In this document: positions 247-17,222 of the stretch, piece by piece
Layout of the letters: each line of letters starts with the position of its first letter
Position numbering within the stretch: the stretch's first letter is position 1
Origin: a virus
DNA length: 20,173 bases
IMG/VR virus record: IMGVR_UViG_3300025086_000336
Coordinates: 1-20,173 of that record
Reading direction: 5' to 3' (one strand)
Translations under genes and position numbers: made by a program
The notes under the pieces: generated by a model
The model's input: the letters and a program-made list of their open reading frames with translations, nothing else
What the model was told of the DNA's origin: nothing
Database searches by the model: none

Positions 247-675
247 ATGACTTTAGTAAATACAAGAGCGGCCTTTGAAAAAGCAGTAACTGACAAAGTG
301 TTAGATGTAGATCCTACTGTGTTAATGGTTTACGATAATGTTCATTTTACAACTCCTGGAAAAACTAAAAAATATATCATTATGACAGTAGATTTTGGGC
401 AATCTACTTTACAAAATCAAGGAGCATCTTCAGATTATTATGCTGGTGTTATTCAATGTAATGTTTATTGTCCAAAGGGAAAAGGAACTTCAGTTTTATC
501 AGAAATAAGTGAAGCTGTTATTGACGGACTTACTTCTGTTAATGCTTCTGGTTATACAGATACTTTTAGTTGTAAACCTAGAGTTCTTGATATAACTGGT
601 CCAACTCCTTTAGATATAGAAGATAGGAGTCACTTTGTTGGAGTAATATCTTGCCAATTTACCGCTAACGCTTAA
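247..675 (+). CDS. Tail terminator protein (lambda gpU / DUF4128-like)
   Basis: A 142-residue protein resembling the tail terminator family that caps the growing tail tube and joins it to the head. The visible signature is the segment around residues 28-65: a YDNVHFTTPG stretch (bound-residue plus F/P-T-P pattern typical of DUF4128 proteins), then a hydrophobic strand, then a polar segment before a GVIQCNVYCPKGKG strand, where the family has a conserved 'Y.G.xQ..V..P.G.G' pattern. The length fits the family (about 130-150). It sits directly before the G/T chaperone and tape measure, the place expected for U. There is no strong Shine-Dalgarno, and start follows the previous stop by 2 nt. The assignment rests on motif recognition and synteny, not a search. 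Confidence 0.75.
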   Translation: MTLVNTRAAFEKAVTDKVLDVDPTVLMVYDNVHFTTPGKTKKYIIMTVDFGQSTLQNQGASSDYYAGVIQCNVYCPKGKGTSVLSEISEAVIDGLTSVNASGYTDTFSCKPRVLDITGPTPLDIEDRSHFVGVISCQFTANA

Positions 676-700: not shown

Positions 701-1054
701 ATGACAAGAGCAGTAGACCTACTCAAAAACAAGTTTGGAGTTTCTCAACTTTACAAACATGATGTTAAACAAGATGATGAGATTATTCTTACTGTCTATT
801 GGCATCCTTTAACTATTGCTGAAAGAGAAGCAATACAGAAAAAAACAGGAACTGATGATACTAATGATTATGCTTTGCAAATGATGATTGAAAAAGCATT
901 AGATAAAGATGGAGCAAGAATTTTTCAAGATGGAGACAAGGCTTCATTAAGAAGAGAAGTTTCAGCATCAATTCTTGAAGAAATACAAATTGCTATGATT
1001 ACTGTTGGTTCTGATAAGGAGGTCAAAGAGGCTAAAGCCGATTTGAAAAGCTAA
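701..1054 (+). CDS. Tail assembly chaperone, short form (gpG-like)
   Basis: A 117-residue acidic/charged protein placed between the tail terminator and the tape measure, as lambda G is. The family's role is to coat the tape measure and recruit tail-tube subunits during assembly; it is not expected in the mature virion. The middle carries an LTIAEREAIQKKTG segment followed by a helical region and a C-terminal EVKEAKADLK tail. That tail reads on naturally into the downstream T-like frame if the ribosome shifts near the stop, as in G/GT systems. A full-length Shine-Dalgarno-like TAAGGAGGT lies inside the gene at 1015-1023. Its own start has no Shine-Dalgarno, but TATAGTAA (676-683) and TATAAT (689-694) lie just upstream. 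Confidence 0.8.
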   Translation: MTRAVDLLKNKFGVSQLYKHDVKQDDEIILTVYWHPLTIAEREAIQKKTGTDDTNDYALQMMIEKALDKDGARIFQDGDKASLRREVSASILEEIQIAMITVGSDKEVKEAKADLKS

Positions 1055-1241
1055 TAAAGATTGGCAATTTATATTTAGTTTGGCAAAGCAATTACATAAA
1101 ACTGTAGCTGAGTTATGTCAGACTCTTACTATCGAAGAGATGATAGGTTGGGCTGCTTATGCAGAAATAGAAAGTGAAGAATATCAAAAACAACAAGAAC
1201 AAGCACAAAGATCTAATGCTTTAAAAGGCAAAAGAAGGTAA
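1047..1241 (+). CDS. gpT-like extension of the tail assembly chaperone, reached by apparent +1 frameshift
   Basis: Downstream of the short chaperone a second frame is open from 1047 to TAA 1239-1241. It begins KANKDWQFIFSLAKQLHKTV and continues with ELCQTLTIEEMIGWAAY, the pattern of lambda gpT and of fused tail chaperones. There is no ATG and no Shine-Dalgarno positioned for it. This frame becomes open only 5 nt before the G stop, because TGA 1044-1046 blocks it upstream, so any shift must occur at 1046-1051. At 1046-1049 there is AAAA. A lysyl-tRNA on AAA 1046-1048 could slide +1 to AAA 1047-1049, giving the smooth junction ADLK-ANKDW and a product of about 179 residues (join 701..1048, 1050..1241). 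A -2 shift reaches the same frame, but re-pairing would be poor. A sequencing indel is the alternative. Confidence 0.78.
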   Translation, partial: KANKDWQFIFSLAKQLHKTVAELCQTLTIEEMIGWAAYAEIESEEYQKQQEQAQRSNALKGKRR

Positions 1242-1272: not shown

Positions 1273-3468
1273 GTGGCTGCTTATAATGTAGATATTGCTA
1301 TTGCCTTAAAAAATTCTAATAAGTTAATTGCTCTTCGCAAAGAATTAAGAGGTGCAACAAAAGAAATAACACAATTTAATAAAGAAGCTAGAGAACAAAA
1401 TAAAGTATTACCAGTATCAATTAATAGTTTTAATAAACAACTTTCAAGAGCTAGAAAATTATTAGATAGAGCAGCAGTAGGAACTTCCAGTTTTAATCGA
1501 GCAGCAAAAGCTTTAGTAAATGTAGAAAAAGAGCACAATAATCAATTAACTATTAAAGAAAAACTTCTAAATAAAATTAGAATGGAAGTTAATGATCCTA
1601 CATTTAATTTACGTCAACAAAGAAAACAACAGATAAGAGAAAATATACGTCAAAATAGAGCACTCAGATTTTCTAATGTTAATCCTAGTCGACCTGCTGT
1701 TGTCGGAGATTTTGGTCAAGCTGGAGGAAGAATAGGACCAGCACAAGCATTAAATAATTCTCAAGGAGGATTTTTAGCTTTTAGTAAAATTGCTAATAAA
1801 TTAGATGGTACTAACTTAAAAAACTTAAAACAAAACACAAAAACAGCGTCAATTTTAGCTTCACAAGCGACAGCAGCCCAGTTTAGAGATATAGGTTTTG
1901 GTATAAAAGGTGGTCAAATTGGACCTGCACAAGCTGTATCTTCACAACCTAATTTCTTTAACAGAATGGGCATTGGTAAAAATGCACAAAAAGGACCATT
2001 TGCGATGCAAGGTGGTGCAACGGCACGTTTAAAAGGTGGTATTGGTAGTGCATTAATCGGTGGAGGTTTTCCTGCATTATTTGGTGCTGGAGGTCTAAGT
2101 TCTGCATTTGGTGCTATTGCTGGTGGTGCTGGAGGAGCACTTGCACCTGGAGGTGGTTTTGCTGCTTCTATCTTTGCTACTGCTATTGCTGCTCAAATTG
2201 AAGATGCAATAGCATTTAGAAAAGAAGTAAAGAAACTAAATGCACAAATGATAGCGATTGGTGGAAGCTCAGAATTTTCAAGAAAAGAAATAAAACAATT
2301 TGGAAAAGAATTAGGTATTACTAAAGAAGAAAGTATACAAGCTTTAGCAGCTTTTTCTCGATTCCAAGATAAAGAAGTAAAAAAAATGCTTGGAAAAACT
2401 CTTGGATCGCCCGAACAATTTGATGCTTTAGCAGGTATTACTGATTCTTCATCATTAATAAATGAGGTCGTAAAGGCAAGAGATATTATTGGACAGACAA
2501 AATCAGATGAATTATTAGCAGATTTAAAATTAGGTAAGAGTCTCGATGTTCAACTGAAGTTAACAAAAGAAATTGCAAGAGTTAGAAGAGAAGAATTTGA
2601 AAAAACTACAACAAAAAAACTTAAAATTGAGGAGAAGAATTTTAAGAACTTAATACTTGAAGAAGGTAATTTAAAAAGATTTTTAGGACAACTCGATCCT
2701 GAGAGTAAATTAGGAAAAGTCCTTAAAGACGTTGATCCTAAAACAGAATTTTTCAGTCAATTACAATCTCAAGTAGGTTTTGGAACTTTAGGAAGAAATC
2801 TTGAACTGTTTAAGAAAGAATTTTTTGATATGTTAAGTGGTGAAGAGATGGCAAAATTTGATGAGGCAGCCGAAAAAACTGCTAAACTTGTTGAGTTTGG
2901 AAGAGAATATGCTCTTCAATTACAAGAGTTTCAAGAATTTAGAGCACCTGTAGATGAAATAGAAAGATTATCAAGAGCAACAAGAGTAGTTCTTGATGTA
3001 AGTAAAGAACTGAAAACAAGTTTTGCAGAATCTTTCAAAGGGATTGTTAAAGGAACAATGACAGTTACTGATGCCTTTAGAAATATGTTGAACAGAATTG
3101 GTGATTATTTCTTAGATCTCGCTGCACAAGTTATGGCTGCGGGTATTCAAAAATCTTTCTTAGGCTTGTTTCAAAATATGTTTAATGTTCAGATGCCGAG
3201 TGGCATGGCAGATGGAGGTCCTGTTAGAGGTGGAACGCCTTATATAGTAGGAGAACGAGGGCCAGAATTATTTACACCAGGAGTAAGTGGAAATATTACA
3301 CCAAATGAGTCTTTGGGTGGTTCAACAAATATAGTAGTAAACGTAGATGCTTCTGGTTCTTCTGTTGAAGGAAATGAACAACAAGGTAGAGAACTTGGTC
3401 AATTAATTTCAGTTGCAGTACAATCTGAAATAATACAACAACAAAGACCAGGAGGATTACTTGCATAA
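1273..3468 (+). CDS. Tail tape measure protein (gpH-like)
   Basis: A 731-residue protein that sets tail length and is ejected during DNA delivery. It starts at GTG 1273, preceded only by a weak purine stretch. The N-terminal 130 residues are charged and helical. Residues about 250-315 form a long Gly/Ala-rich hydrophobic segment expected to interact with membrane. Residues 430-600 are again helical and charged. The C-terminus (about 645-680) has the hallmark ADGGPVRGGTPYIVGERGPE motif followed by LFTPG and NITPNE, seen at the end of many tape measures. By the usual 0.15 nm per residue rule the tail would be roughly 110 nm. The short segment 'GGRIGPAQA' recurs as 'GGQIGPAQA' about 60 residues later. 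The stop overlaps the next ATG by 1 nt. Confidence 0.95.
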   Translation: MAAYNVDIAIALKNSNKLIALRKELRGATKEITQFNKEAREQNKVLPVSINSFNKQLSRARKLLDRAAVGTSSFNRAAKALVNVEKEHNNQLTIKEKLLNKIRMEVNDPTFNLRQQRKQQIRENIRQNRALRFSNVNPSRPAVVGDFGQAGGRIGPAQALNNSQGGFLAFSKIANKLDGTNLKNLKQNTKTASILASQATAAQFRDIGFGIKGGQIGPAQAVSSQPNFFNRMGIGKNAQKGPFAMQGGATARLKGGIGSALIGGGFPALFGAGGLSSAFGAIAGGAGGALAPGGGFAASIFATAIAAQIEDAIAFRKEVKKLNAQMIAIGGSSEFSRKEIKQFGKELGITKEESIQALAAFSRFQDKEVKKMLGKTLGSPEQFDALAGITDSSSLINEVVKARDIIGQTKSDELLADLKLGKSLDVQLKLTKEIARVRREEFEKTTTKKLKIEEKNFKNLILEEGNLKRFLGQLDPESKLGKVLKDVDPKTEFFSQLQSQVGFGTLGRNLELFKKEFFDMLSGEEMAKFDEAAEKTAKLVEFGREYALQLQEFQEFRAPVDEIERLSRATRVVLDVSKELKTSFAESFKGIVKGTMTVTDAFRNMLNRIGDYFLDLAAQVMAAGIQKSFLGLFQNMFNVQMPSGMADGGPVRGGTPYIVGERGPELFTPGVSGNITPNESLGGSTNIVVNVDASGSSVEGNEQQGRELGQLISVAVQSEIIQQQRPGGLLA

Positions 3469-3815: not shown

Positions 3816-4390
3816 GTACTGCTCCTGTTTTTAGTGAAGTTCAAAAAATAAATCCCTCTGCAATTATTGAACTATTTACACTAAAACTAGATAACTCTTT
3901 ACATGGTGCAACTACAACTTATAGATTTCATTCGGGATCTAATCTAAATGCAAATGGAGAAATAGTTTGGGCTGGTGATTCTTATTTAAGATTTCCAATA
4001 GAAGCTACAGGTTTTGCGTATCAACGTGGTCAGATTCCTAGACCAAAACTTGTAGTAAGTAATGCACTAGGAACAATATCTGCAATACTTCTTACTGTTA
4101 ATCAGACAACAACTGGTAATGATTTAACAGGAGCTACTGTTACAAGAATAAGAACAATGGCAAGATTTTTAGATGCTGTTAATTTTCCAGGGAGTTCTAA
4201 TCCATTAGGAACACCAGATCCTACAGCCGAATTTAAACGTCAGATATATGTAATTGATAGAAAATCAGCAGAAAATAGAGATGTAGTAGAATTTGAACTA
4301 GCAGGAGCTATTGATATGGCTGGAGTTAGAGCACCGAAACGTCAATGCACTCGTGCTTTATTTCCTAGCATTGGTACGTTTAATCAATGA
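3812..4390 (+). CDS. Minor tail protein L-like, without the C-terminal Fe-S domain
   Basis: A 192-residue protein like the N-terminal part of lambda gpL (PF05100-type), a tail-tip protein sitting between M and K. The recognisable stretch is INPSAIIELFTLKLD near the start, then 'GFAYQRGQIPRPKLVVSN', an arginine-rich region with PTAEFKRQIYVIDRK, and the closing FELAGAIDMAGVRAPKRQC. In lambda-type L proteins (232 residues) that last segment leads into a cysteine-rich domain that binds a 4Fe-4S cluster. Here the protein ends 13 residues after Cys179, its only cysteine in that part, so the cluster domain is missing. The end is an ATGA overlap with the intact K gene, and no leftover Cys-rich frame follows, so this looks like the real end. 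Strong AGGGAGG ribosome site. Confidence 0.87.
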   Translation: MSTAPVFSEVQKINPSAIIELFTLKLDNSLHGATTTYRFHSGSNLNANGEIVWAGDSYLRFPIEATGFAYQRGQIPRPKLVVSNALGTISAILLTVNQTTTGNDLTGATVTRIRTMARFLDAVNFPGSSNPLGTPDPTAEFKRQIYVIDRKSAENRDVVEFELAGAIDMAGVRAPKRQCTRALFPSIGTFNQ

Positions 4391-5094
4391 GTTGGAAAGA
4401 TGACGCATTGGTTCATGCGAAAGACCAAGATCCTAAAGAAGCTGTAGGACTTTTACTAAATATCAGAGGTAAACATAAATATTATCCTTGTCAAAACTTA
4501 GCAATAACAAATCATCAAGAATTTATTTTAAATCCAGAAGATTATGTAAAAGCAGATAGTCTTGGAGAAATAACTGCTGTTGTTCATAGTCATCCGACAA
4601 CACCTCCTGTTCCAAGTCAAGCTGATCGTATTAGTTGTGAGCATAGTAAATTACCTTGGCATATTGTTAACCCTAAGACAGGTGAATGGGGTGAATGTAT
4701 TCCCGAAGGTTATGTTCCAGAATTACTAGGCAGACCGTGGGTATGGGGTGTTACTGACTGTTGGAGTTTAGTTGTCGATTGGTACGCACAAGAAAAAGGT
4801 ATAGAACTAAAAGATTATGCAAGAAATATGACACCACAGGAATTTTTAGAGAATCCTTTATTTGAAGATTATGCGTGGCGAACAGGATTTAGAGAACTTA
4901 GATCAGAAGAAAAGTTAGAAGCTGGAGATGTTTTATTAATGTCTATAATGCACCCAACTTTAAATCATGTAGCTATTTTTCTTGGAGATATGGTTTTACA
5001 CCATTTAGCAGATAGACTATCTTGTAGAGAGCCATATTCTGAGTGGTTGTTAAAATGTACTGGTAAGAGGTATCGCTATGCTCAGAAAAGTTAA
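4387..5094 (+). CDS. Tail tip peptidase: JAMM + NlpC/P60 domains (gpK-like)
   Basis: A 235-residue two-domain protein equivalent to lambda gpK, a tail-tip assembly factor with predicted peptidase and cell-wall hydrolase activities. Residues 1-100 form a JAB1/MPN (JAMM) metalloprotease domain: Glu18, then HSH at 67-69, Ser77 and Asp80, matching the E...HxHx7SxxD zinc motif exactly. Residues about 110-235 form an NlpC/P60 domain with the catalytic cysteine in TDCWSLVVDWY (Cys125), the histidine in LNHVAIFLG (His194) and a third polar residue candidate at His205 or His206. Both active sites appear intact. It lies in an overlapping L-K-I string, beginning by a 4-nt ATGA overlap and sharing 17 nt with the next gene. 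Confidence 0.93.
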   Translation: MSWKDDALVHAKDQDPKEAVGLLLNIRGKHKYYPCQNLAITNHQEFILNPEDYVKADSLGEITAVVHSHPTTPPVPSQADRISCEHSKLPWHIVNPKTGEWGECIPEGYVPELLGRPWVWGVTDCWSLVVDWYAQEKGIELKDYARNMTPQEFLENPLFEDYAWRTGFRELRSEEKLEAGDVLLMSIMHPTLNHVAIFLGDMVLHHLADRLSCREPYSEWLLKCTGKRYRYAQKS

Positions 5095-14223: not shown

Positions 14224-15462
14224 ATGGCATTAACACAGATAACAACAGACGGAATAAAAGACGGCACTATAACTGGAACGGATCTTACCACCAACGTAGA
14301 CTTTGTTGATAACCAAAAGCTAAGACTTGGGACAGGTAATGATCTAGAAATTTATCACGATGGTAGTCATAGTTTTATTGATAACGACACAGGACATCTT
14401 ACTGTTACTGCAAGTCAGATAAATTTAAACAATCAAGATAATTCTGAGAATTGTGCCACACTTGTTGGTAATGGTGCTGTAAACCTATTTTTTAATGGTA
14501 GTAAAAAATTTGAGACTACAAGTAATGGAGTCAACATTACGTCAGGAACTCCTTTTCTTACTGTTACAGCTTCAGATAATGATGGAGATGCAACATTAAA
14601 TCTTGTTGCTAAATCTCAAGATGGATCTATTGTTGGTGGTATTTCAAGAATAGTATCCGAGTCATCTAGCAATTCAAATGGTGCTTCAGCCATGTCGTTG
14701 CAAACTCGCAATAGTAGTAATACTGTCACTACTGCAATAAGAATAGATAAAGATCAAGATGTTACTTTACCAATAGACAATCAAAAACTAAGGTTTGGTG
14801 CTAGTCAAGACCTACAAATTTATCATGATGGAAGTAACTCTTACATTAATAACGATACTCAGTATTTACAGATTCAATCTAGCTATGGAGTTCTTTTACA
14901 AAGACATGACGGAAGTGAGAACTTATTAAGAGCGTTATCTAATGGAGCCGTAGAACTCTATTACGATGGCAATAAGAAGTTTGAGACAACAAGTGCTGGA
15001 GTTAGTGTAACAGGTGTTCAAGCTATTAATGGTGGCCTTACTGATACTCCATTTACTATTGATGCAGCCGCTAGTAATGGGCCACACATGAGGTTTAAAA
15101 AAAATGGGGCTGATTTACATTTTGTAGGATGTGCACCCGGAATTGGAGCTGGTGGTGATTCAGAGGATATGGCAATTAGATTTGAAGATCAACTTTTCTT
15201 TAACAGAAATGGTACAAATTTTGCCAAAATTGATAACACCGCTTTTTACCCAAACGTTAATAACACATACGATCTAGGTTCAACATCTAAGCGTTGGAGA
15301 AACATCTACACCAATGACCTTAATTTATCTAACGAAGGTGGTGCTAATGATGTTGACGGAACTTGGGGAAGTTATACTATACAAGAAGGAGCAGAGGATC
15401 TTTTCTTAGTGAACAAACGATCTGGTAAGAAATATAAGTTCAACTTAACGGAGGTATCGTAA
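14224..15462 (+). CDS. Tail fibre with two YHDG repeat modules
   Basis: A 412-residue fibre beginning ALTQITTDGIKDGTITGTDL, a common phage fibre start. It contains two copies of a roughly 75-residue module: residues 29-108 (DNQKLRLGTGNDLEIYHDGS ... GAVNLFFNGSKKFETTSNGV) and residues 185-260 (DNQKLRFGASQDLQIYHDGS ... GAVELYYDGNKKFETTSAGV). The C-terminus (YDLGSTSKRWRNIYTNDLNL, then EDLFLVNKRSGKKYKFNL) is strongly reminiscent of cyanophage fibre ends. No S74 domain is present, although such C-termini often precede one. It begins right after the previous stop with GGAGG as ribosome site and overlaps the next gene by 1 nt. Host recognition or a structural fibre shaft is the likely role. Confidence 0.83.
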   Translation: MALTQITTDGIKDGTITGTDLTTNVDFVDNQKLRLGTGNDLEIYHDGSHSFIDNDTGHLTVTASQINLNNQDNSENCATLVGNGAVNLFFNGSKKFETTSNGVNITSGTPFLTVTASDNDGDATLNLVAKSQDGSIVGGISRIVSESSSNSNGASAMSLQTRNSSNTVTTAIRIDKDQDVTLPIDNQKLRFGASQDLQIYHDGSNSYINNDTQYLQIQSSYGVLLQRHDGSENLLRALSNGAVELYYDGNKKFETTSAGVSVTGVQAINGGLTDTPFTIDAAASNGPHMRFKKNGADLHFVGCAPGIGAGGDSEDMAIRFEDQLFFNRNGTNFAKIDNTAFYPNVNNTYDLGSTSKRWRNIYTNDLNLSNEGGANDVDGTWGSYTIQEGAEDLFLVNKRSGKKYKFNLTEVS

Positions 15463-16952: not shown

Positions 16953-17222
16953 ATGGTGACAGGCACTAACGCTTTAGCAAAGGCTTCTCTCATGTTTCAA
17001 AAAATTGCAAATGTTTTGAGTATTCTCTCATTTCTAATGGTAACTTCTGTTATCGGTGGAGGGTACTTTGGTTATAAGTATGTAACGTCAGAACAATTTC
17101 AAAACAAGATGATGAATAAAGTTTTAAAAGGAGTTGGAGGCATGATGCCTAAAGTCTTAGATAAAGGATTACCAAAGATGACAGGAGAATCCATGCCAAT
17201 TCCTAAGAACTTGGGTATCTAA
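16953..17222 (+). CDS. Single-pass membrane protein, cyanophage-type (unknown)
   Basis: An 89-residue protein with one long hydrophobic segment at about residues 20-46 (VLSILSFLMVTSVIGGGYFG, then YKYVTSEQFQNKM). The part after it is basic and amphipathic (NKVLKGVGGMMPKVLDKGLP). This architecture and the 'GGGYFGYxYVTSxxF' phrase match a small membrane protein I recall in cyanophages, where it precedes a CxxC zinc-ribbon gene as it does here. ATG 16953 has GAAGG seven nt upstream. An upstream AGAGGAG site leads instead to a two-codon frame at 16927. Its stop overlaps the next ATG as TAATG. Function unknown. Confidence 0.72.
   Translation: MVTGTNALAKASLMFQKIANVLSILSFLMVTSVIGGGYFGYKYVTSEQFQNKMMNKVLKGVGGMMPKVLDKGLPKMTGESMPIPKNLGI

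Follow-up and report, generated by a model that had tools for sequence, protein, structure and literature searches.

A conserved AAA_AGC site predicted to direct +1 ribosomal frameshifting in the tail chaperone genes of uncultured ocean phages

The linear virus record IMGVR_UViG_3300025086_000336 (20,173 bases, analyzed over its whole length and hereafter called the window) carries a siphophage tail module in which the minor tail genes come after the tape measure gene. Between its tail terminator and tape measure genes lie G, which encodes a tail assembly chaperone, and T, an overlapping reading frame that lacks a start codon of its own (Table 1). Most phages make the longer tail chaperone by a −1 slip of the ribosome. 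Here, we describe a G/T junction in which T lies in the +1 frame instead, and conclude that the longer protein, GT, is very probably (about 0.85) produced by programmed +1 ribosomal frameshifting at the sequence AAA_AGC.

Table 1. Features of the G/T region of the window and of the genes that flank it.
Feature	Position	Strand	Evidence
Tail terminator gene, directly 5′ of G	247–675	+	phrog_179, 7e-12
G, short form of the tail assembly chaperone (0 frame)	701–1054	+	phrog_344, 1.3e-5; fold match to HK97 2ob9
Internal Shine-Dalgarno-like sequence AAGGAGGU (AAG GAG GU), perfect match	1016–1023	+	anti-Shine-Dalgarno duplex energy; fixed register
Mini-hairpin GGC(UAAA)GCC, ending 6 nucleotides before AAA	1030–1039	+	only consensus stem; closing pair conserved
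E-site codon UUR, creating a +1-frame stop (UGA or UAA, 1044–1046) directly 5′ of the slip	1043–1046	+	UUR 193/193, CUN never
Proposed slip site AAA_AGC (P site AAA, A site AGC; +1 codons AAA then GCU)	1046–1051	+	AAA 274/274, AGC 268/274; second lineage 55/55; synonymous changes observed/expected 0/17.3 (AAA) and 4/34.4 (AGC)
T, encoding the C-terminal part that GT adds to G; in the +1 frame of G and without a start codon	1047–1241	+	phrog_337, 6.1e-6; +1 in 269/269
0-frame stop of G, position variable in the clade	1052–1054	+	sequence; clade counts
Tape measure protein gene, directly 3′ of T	1273–3468	+	phrog_1538, 6.8e-14

Both frames are protein coding, as each matches PHROG profiles: G matches phrog_20784 (1.8e-25) as well as the tail assembly chaperone family phrog_344, and T matches the tail protein family phrog_337. 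A PDB sequence search using the G profile gave no match, but an AlphaFold model of G built with 24 related sequences (pLDDT 74.9) matched HK97 gp13, a tail assembly chaperone, best among PDB structures (2ob9; probability 1.00, E 0.013, TM ~0.5). Because the phrog_344 match, this predicted fold and the gene order agree, we regard the G/GT assignment as solid. The locus has a chaperone homologue, an overlapping startless T before the tape measure gene and a slip site conserved where G ends, as is typical of the G/GT family, whose mechanism is known, as an initial sequence-only reading of this DNA had noted. In this family, tails assemble properly only with a GT:G ratio that is low and fixed. In the isolate records compared, the T frame is unannotated or entered as a separate open reading frame (ORF). 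The BFVD entry D6PII1, a viral protein of 179 residues, is 55% identical to G; the window's +1 fusion would likewise have 179 residues, so D6PII1 may either be a relative of GT read in one frame or reflect a frame error in its record.

At its 3′ end the 0 frame of G reads GCC GAT TTG AAA AGC TAA, with GAT, AAA and TAA beginning at 1040, 1046 and 1052. The T frame, +1 (formally +1 or −2) relative to G, is closed on its 5′ side by TGA at 1044–1046 and opens only at 1047, from where it reads AAA GCT AAT AAA GAT TGG and continues to TAA at 1239–1241. With the +1-frame TGA closing one side and the 0-frame TAA closing the other, the shift is confined to approximately 1046–1051. These coordinates and this interval are as the sequence-only reading had given them. 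The 5′ boundary is shared by every member of the window's clade, because the leucine codon before AAA is always UUR.

T lies at the +1 offset in the window and in all 79 of the first relatives with a detectable T. The final clade set comprises 274 distinct sequences, 5 of them without T sequence, and the offset recurs in the remaining 269 of 269. An identical indel across 269 assemblies is impossible, so the sequences make a sequencing or assembly error untenable as the source of the offset. AAA is invariant in the clade and is followed by AGC (268), AGT (4) or AGG (2), leaving AAA_AG as the invariant core. The distance from AAA to the 0-frame stop is 2 codons in 164 sequences, 3 in 53 and 4 in 8, and because it varies, the stop is not part of the signal. 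The sequence-only reading had asked whether relatives share the frame offset and an AAAAGC-TAA context: the offset is universal and AAA_AG is kept, whereas the position of TAA is not. No clade member has a −1 offset there or one continuous frame, either of which that reading would have taken as a sign of an indel; −1 offsets occur only in relatives of ~30–41% identity, together with −1 slippery heptamers.

These distant relatives include the isolates KBS-S-2A, S-H1, MED4-184, HTVC202P and HTVC026P, all with T in the −1 frame and several with A_AAA_AAC where G ends. Among 80 KBS-S-2A-like contigs, 75 have the −1 offset and three the +1 offset, the latter with the junction GAC ATG AAA AGC. Searching with one of these three gathered a second lineage of 81 loci, every one of which has the +1 offset. 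AUG AAA AGC is invariant in its 55 distinct sequences, while several neighboring lysine codons are freely AAG. The +1 frame again opens exactly at AAA, after a UGA that AUG-A yields at the place equivalent to 1044–1046, and the 0-frame stop lies further 3′.

A carefully searched tree of 44 G+T proteins places the second +1 lineage (100/98 support) within the −1 sequences. The frame-direction label needs two changes on this tree, no bootstrap tree needs only one, and a constraint placing all +1 sequences in one clade was rejected (p-AU 0.007). The plainest reading of these sequences is that +1 shifting at AAA_AGC was probably gained twice, independently; an ancestral +1 followed by loss and regain is formally allowed. 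Independent arrival at AAA_AGC would be the strongest evidence for the location of the shift.

Synonymous change was compared with expectation in 5-codon windows over 115 independent pairs of clade sequences. The least synonymous change in the entire G gene falls in the windows just 5′ of the slip site (observed/expected 0.11–0.52). Individual codons here are nearly frozen: AAG GAG (2/14.1 and 1/17.6), GAG (0/15.7), GCU (7/29.6), AAA (1/17.3) and GCC (0/29.6), while third positions vary freely in the valine codon between frozen codons and in the leucine codon before AAA. Part of this constraint coincides with the Shine-Dalgarno-like sequence, for which the mean anti-Shine-Dalgarno duplex energy is −11.8 kcal/mol, against −5.2 kcal/mol after synonymous shuffling. 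The distance from its end to AAA is 22 nucleotides (nt) in 86 of 93 sequences. The mini-hairpin is the only consensus stem between −60 and +110; its closing G-C pair, formed by two third codon positions, is present in 225/225 sequences and its loop is variable.

On the 3′ side of the slip the clade has no consensus stem that could serve as a downstream stimulatory structure. The window itself can form a stem directly after the slip, GCUAAU(AAAG)AUUGGC at 1050–1065, which we rejected as a stimulator because the clade does not conserve it. A stem formed between GCCGAUUU and AGAUUGGC was likewise dropped, since the codon tables show changes at 1042 and 1061 that disrupt pairing without compensation.

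We propose that the shift would occur while AAA occupies the ribosomal P (peptidyl) site and the A (aminoacyl) site holds AGC or, in rare cases, AGU or AGG. Peptidyl-tRNA-Lys would slide one base forward onto the overlapping AAA, where re-pairing gives three cognate pairs, and GCN would be decoded next. The majority of ribosomes would stay in frame and terminate soon after, yielding G, and a minority would yield GT. In the window's clade, AAGGAGGU and the mini-hairpin beside the E (exit) site probably boost the forward slip: the folded hairpin would stand 3 nt from the E-site codon and use up 10 of the 22 nt between the Shine-Dalgarno-like sequence and the P site. Experiments with 70S ribosomes have found that an upstream hairpin abutting the E site mimics an internal Shine-Dalgarno duplex and stimulates +1 shifting (PMC6321510). 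In the window's clade the two elements may cooperate. The slip at AAAA through re-pairing of tRNA-Lys had been anticipated in the sequence-only reading and is supported by the presence of AAAA in 274/274 clade and 55/55 second-lineage sequences; the stop codon that it placed in the signal does not belong there, and it had overlooked the Shine-Dalgarno-like sequence, the mini-hairpin and the second lineage.

Several observations weigh against this model or its parts. The hairpin pairs never vary, leaving covariation silent, neither supporting nor opposing the stem, and the second lineage has no hairpin, which makes it an accessory of the window's clade. AGC makes up 5.9% of serine codons in the window but is the commonest serine codon (30–42%) in second-lineage genomes, so codon rarity is unlikely to drive the shift in both lineages, although the second lineage also keeps AGC. 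In one relative, AAA_AGC also occurs in frame elsewhere (3 times versus 1.5 expected), which indicates that the bare core is not strongly shifty. Taking all parts together, we consider it an even bet that they constitute a bacterial +1 cassette of new architecture, in which a stop-free AAA_AGC slip is boosted from its 5′ side by a strong internal Shine-Dalgarno sequence, the effective spacing of which is set by a tiny conserved E-site hairpin, and whose bare core evolved twice from −1 sites in one chaperone family.

Other mechanisms were rejected. A stop-driven shift of the prfB type conflicts with AGC, AGU or AGG as the codon after AAA and with the varying stop position; transcriptional slippage conflicts with an A run only 4–5 long; and a canonical −1 X_XXY_YYZ site conflicts with the offset itself, as T is not in the −1 frame. 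A −2 shift, as used in the tail genes of phage Mu (PMC5009743), reaches the identical frame and would make the same GT fusion with one extra residue, and the Shine-Dalgarno-like sequence is more distant than in known +1 sites, where the spacing is close. Throughout both lineages, however, a −2 shift would have to place tRNA-Lys on a stop codon (UGA or UAA) or else tRNA-Ser on AAA, where a +1 shift offers three cognate pairs on AAA, and like the sequence-only reading, which called such pairing poor, we consider it unlikely.

Two further explanations appear highly improbable. One is a 13-nt bypass from AAA at 1034–1036 to AAA at 1047–1049, in which the Shine-Dalgarno-like sequence and hairpin would play the parts known from T4 gene 60. 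Both AAA codons are followed by GC, a 13-nt displacement equals +1, and the hairpin and Shine-Dalgarno-like sequence are close by, but the take-off AAA is replaced by GAA in some clade members and has no conserved counterpart in the second lineage, and bypassing leaves the frozen second AAA_AGC in the 0 frame unaccounted for. The other dispenses with frameshifting and takes T for an independently initiated gene or its offset for an indel. The S-H1 record does annotate a separate ORF in the T region, and a Shine-Dalgarno-like sequence lies upstream of T. However, the first 14 codons of T contain no ATG, GTG or TTG in 186 of 225 sequences and none is conserved, initiation near the Shine-Dalgarno-like sequence would run into the +1-frame stop, and an indel fails on the 269 assemblies described above.

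A programmed +1 shift at AAA_AGC can be set against several known systems. With G/GT of lambda (−1, with counterparts in HK97, P2 and others) the window shares the gene order, the chaperone fold, a short T before the tape measure gene and a shift at the end of G; it differs in the direction of the shift, in AAA_AGC rather than X_XXY_YYZ, and in having its conserved RNA upstream and not downstream. Tail genes of phage Mu use a −2 shift and those of halovirus HSTV-2 very likely a +1 shift (PMC5009743). Both, like the window, extend a tail chaperone in the +1 frame; for AAA_AGC we see deep conservation and, probably, a repeated origin. Like prfB (RF2), the window combines a +1 P-site slip with an internal Shine-Dalgarno sequence upstream, but it needs no stop codon, and its Shine-Dalgarno-like sequence lies 22 nt away, beyond the mini-hairpin, instead of directly beside the E site. 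Listeria phage PSA lengthens capsid and tail shaft proteins by +1 shifts at a proline codon combined with either a pseudoknot or a stop (PMC5009743), thus also extending phage structural genes, although the genes and the site type differ. In yeast, the Ty1, EST3 and ABP140 sites likewise re-pair the P-site tRNA while the A site holds an AGN codon, and ABP140 has a comparable 5′ RNA structure stimulator (PMC12661321); theirs is a CUU slip on the eukaryotic ribosome, and in the second phage lineage AGC is not a rare codon.

Elsewhere in the window, 4387–5094 encodes a tail protein with a JAB-type peptidase domain fused to an NlpC/P60 domain, like lambda K, and the product of 16953–17222, past the tail genes, is small and matches phrog_568 'plasmid stability' (3e-16). 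The interval from the tail terminator to G (675–701) contains no gene for a major tail protein, either in the window or in its relatives. On a 34.7-kb relative contig (L525, which holds L127), a major tail protein (phrog_10528, 1.7e-22) is found at 14293–14709, an unusual location between terminase-like and portal-like ORFs.

The clade includes one single virus particle, AG-345-A17. It also includes a 41-kb contig (L526, QCMG01000013.1) in the single-cell assembly of Prochlorococcus sp. AG-418-M08, the sole relative that a set of 84,980 species genomes contained. That cell was probably infected, and because a contig of the clade sits in its assembly, the host of this uncultured ocean phage clade is probably Prochlorococcus.

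G/GT frameshifting is already known in −1, −2 and very likely +1 versions (PMC5009743), and no motif common to +1 sites in general has so far been defined (PMC10885494). Our search of an open-access library turned up no account of +1 shifting at AAA_AGC, and the sequences support it well as a new variant of G/GT frameshifting. Hundreds of natural sequences in two lineages supply a tight +1 motif, with sister phages shifting −1 at the same spot. The finding reveals a predicted GT protein missing from annotation, and it makes directly testable both a directional switch of a required frameshift in evolution and a forward push on the ribosome by upstream RNA.
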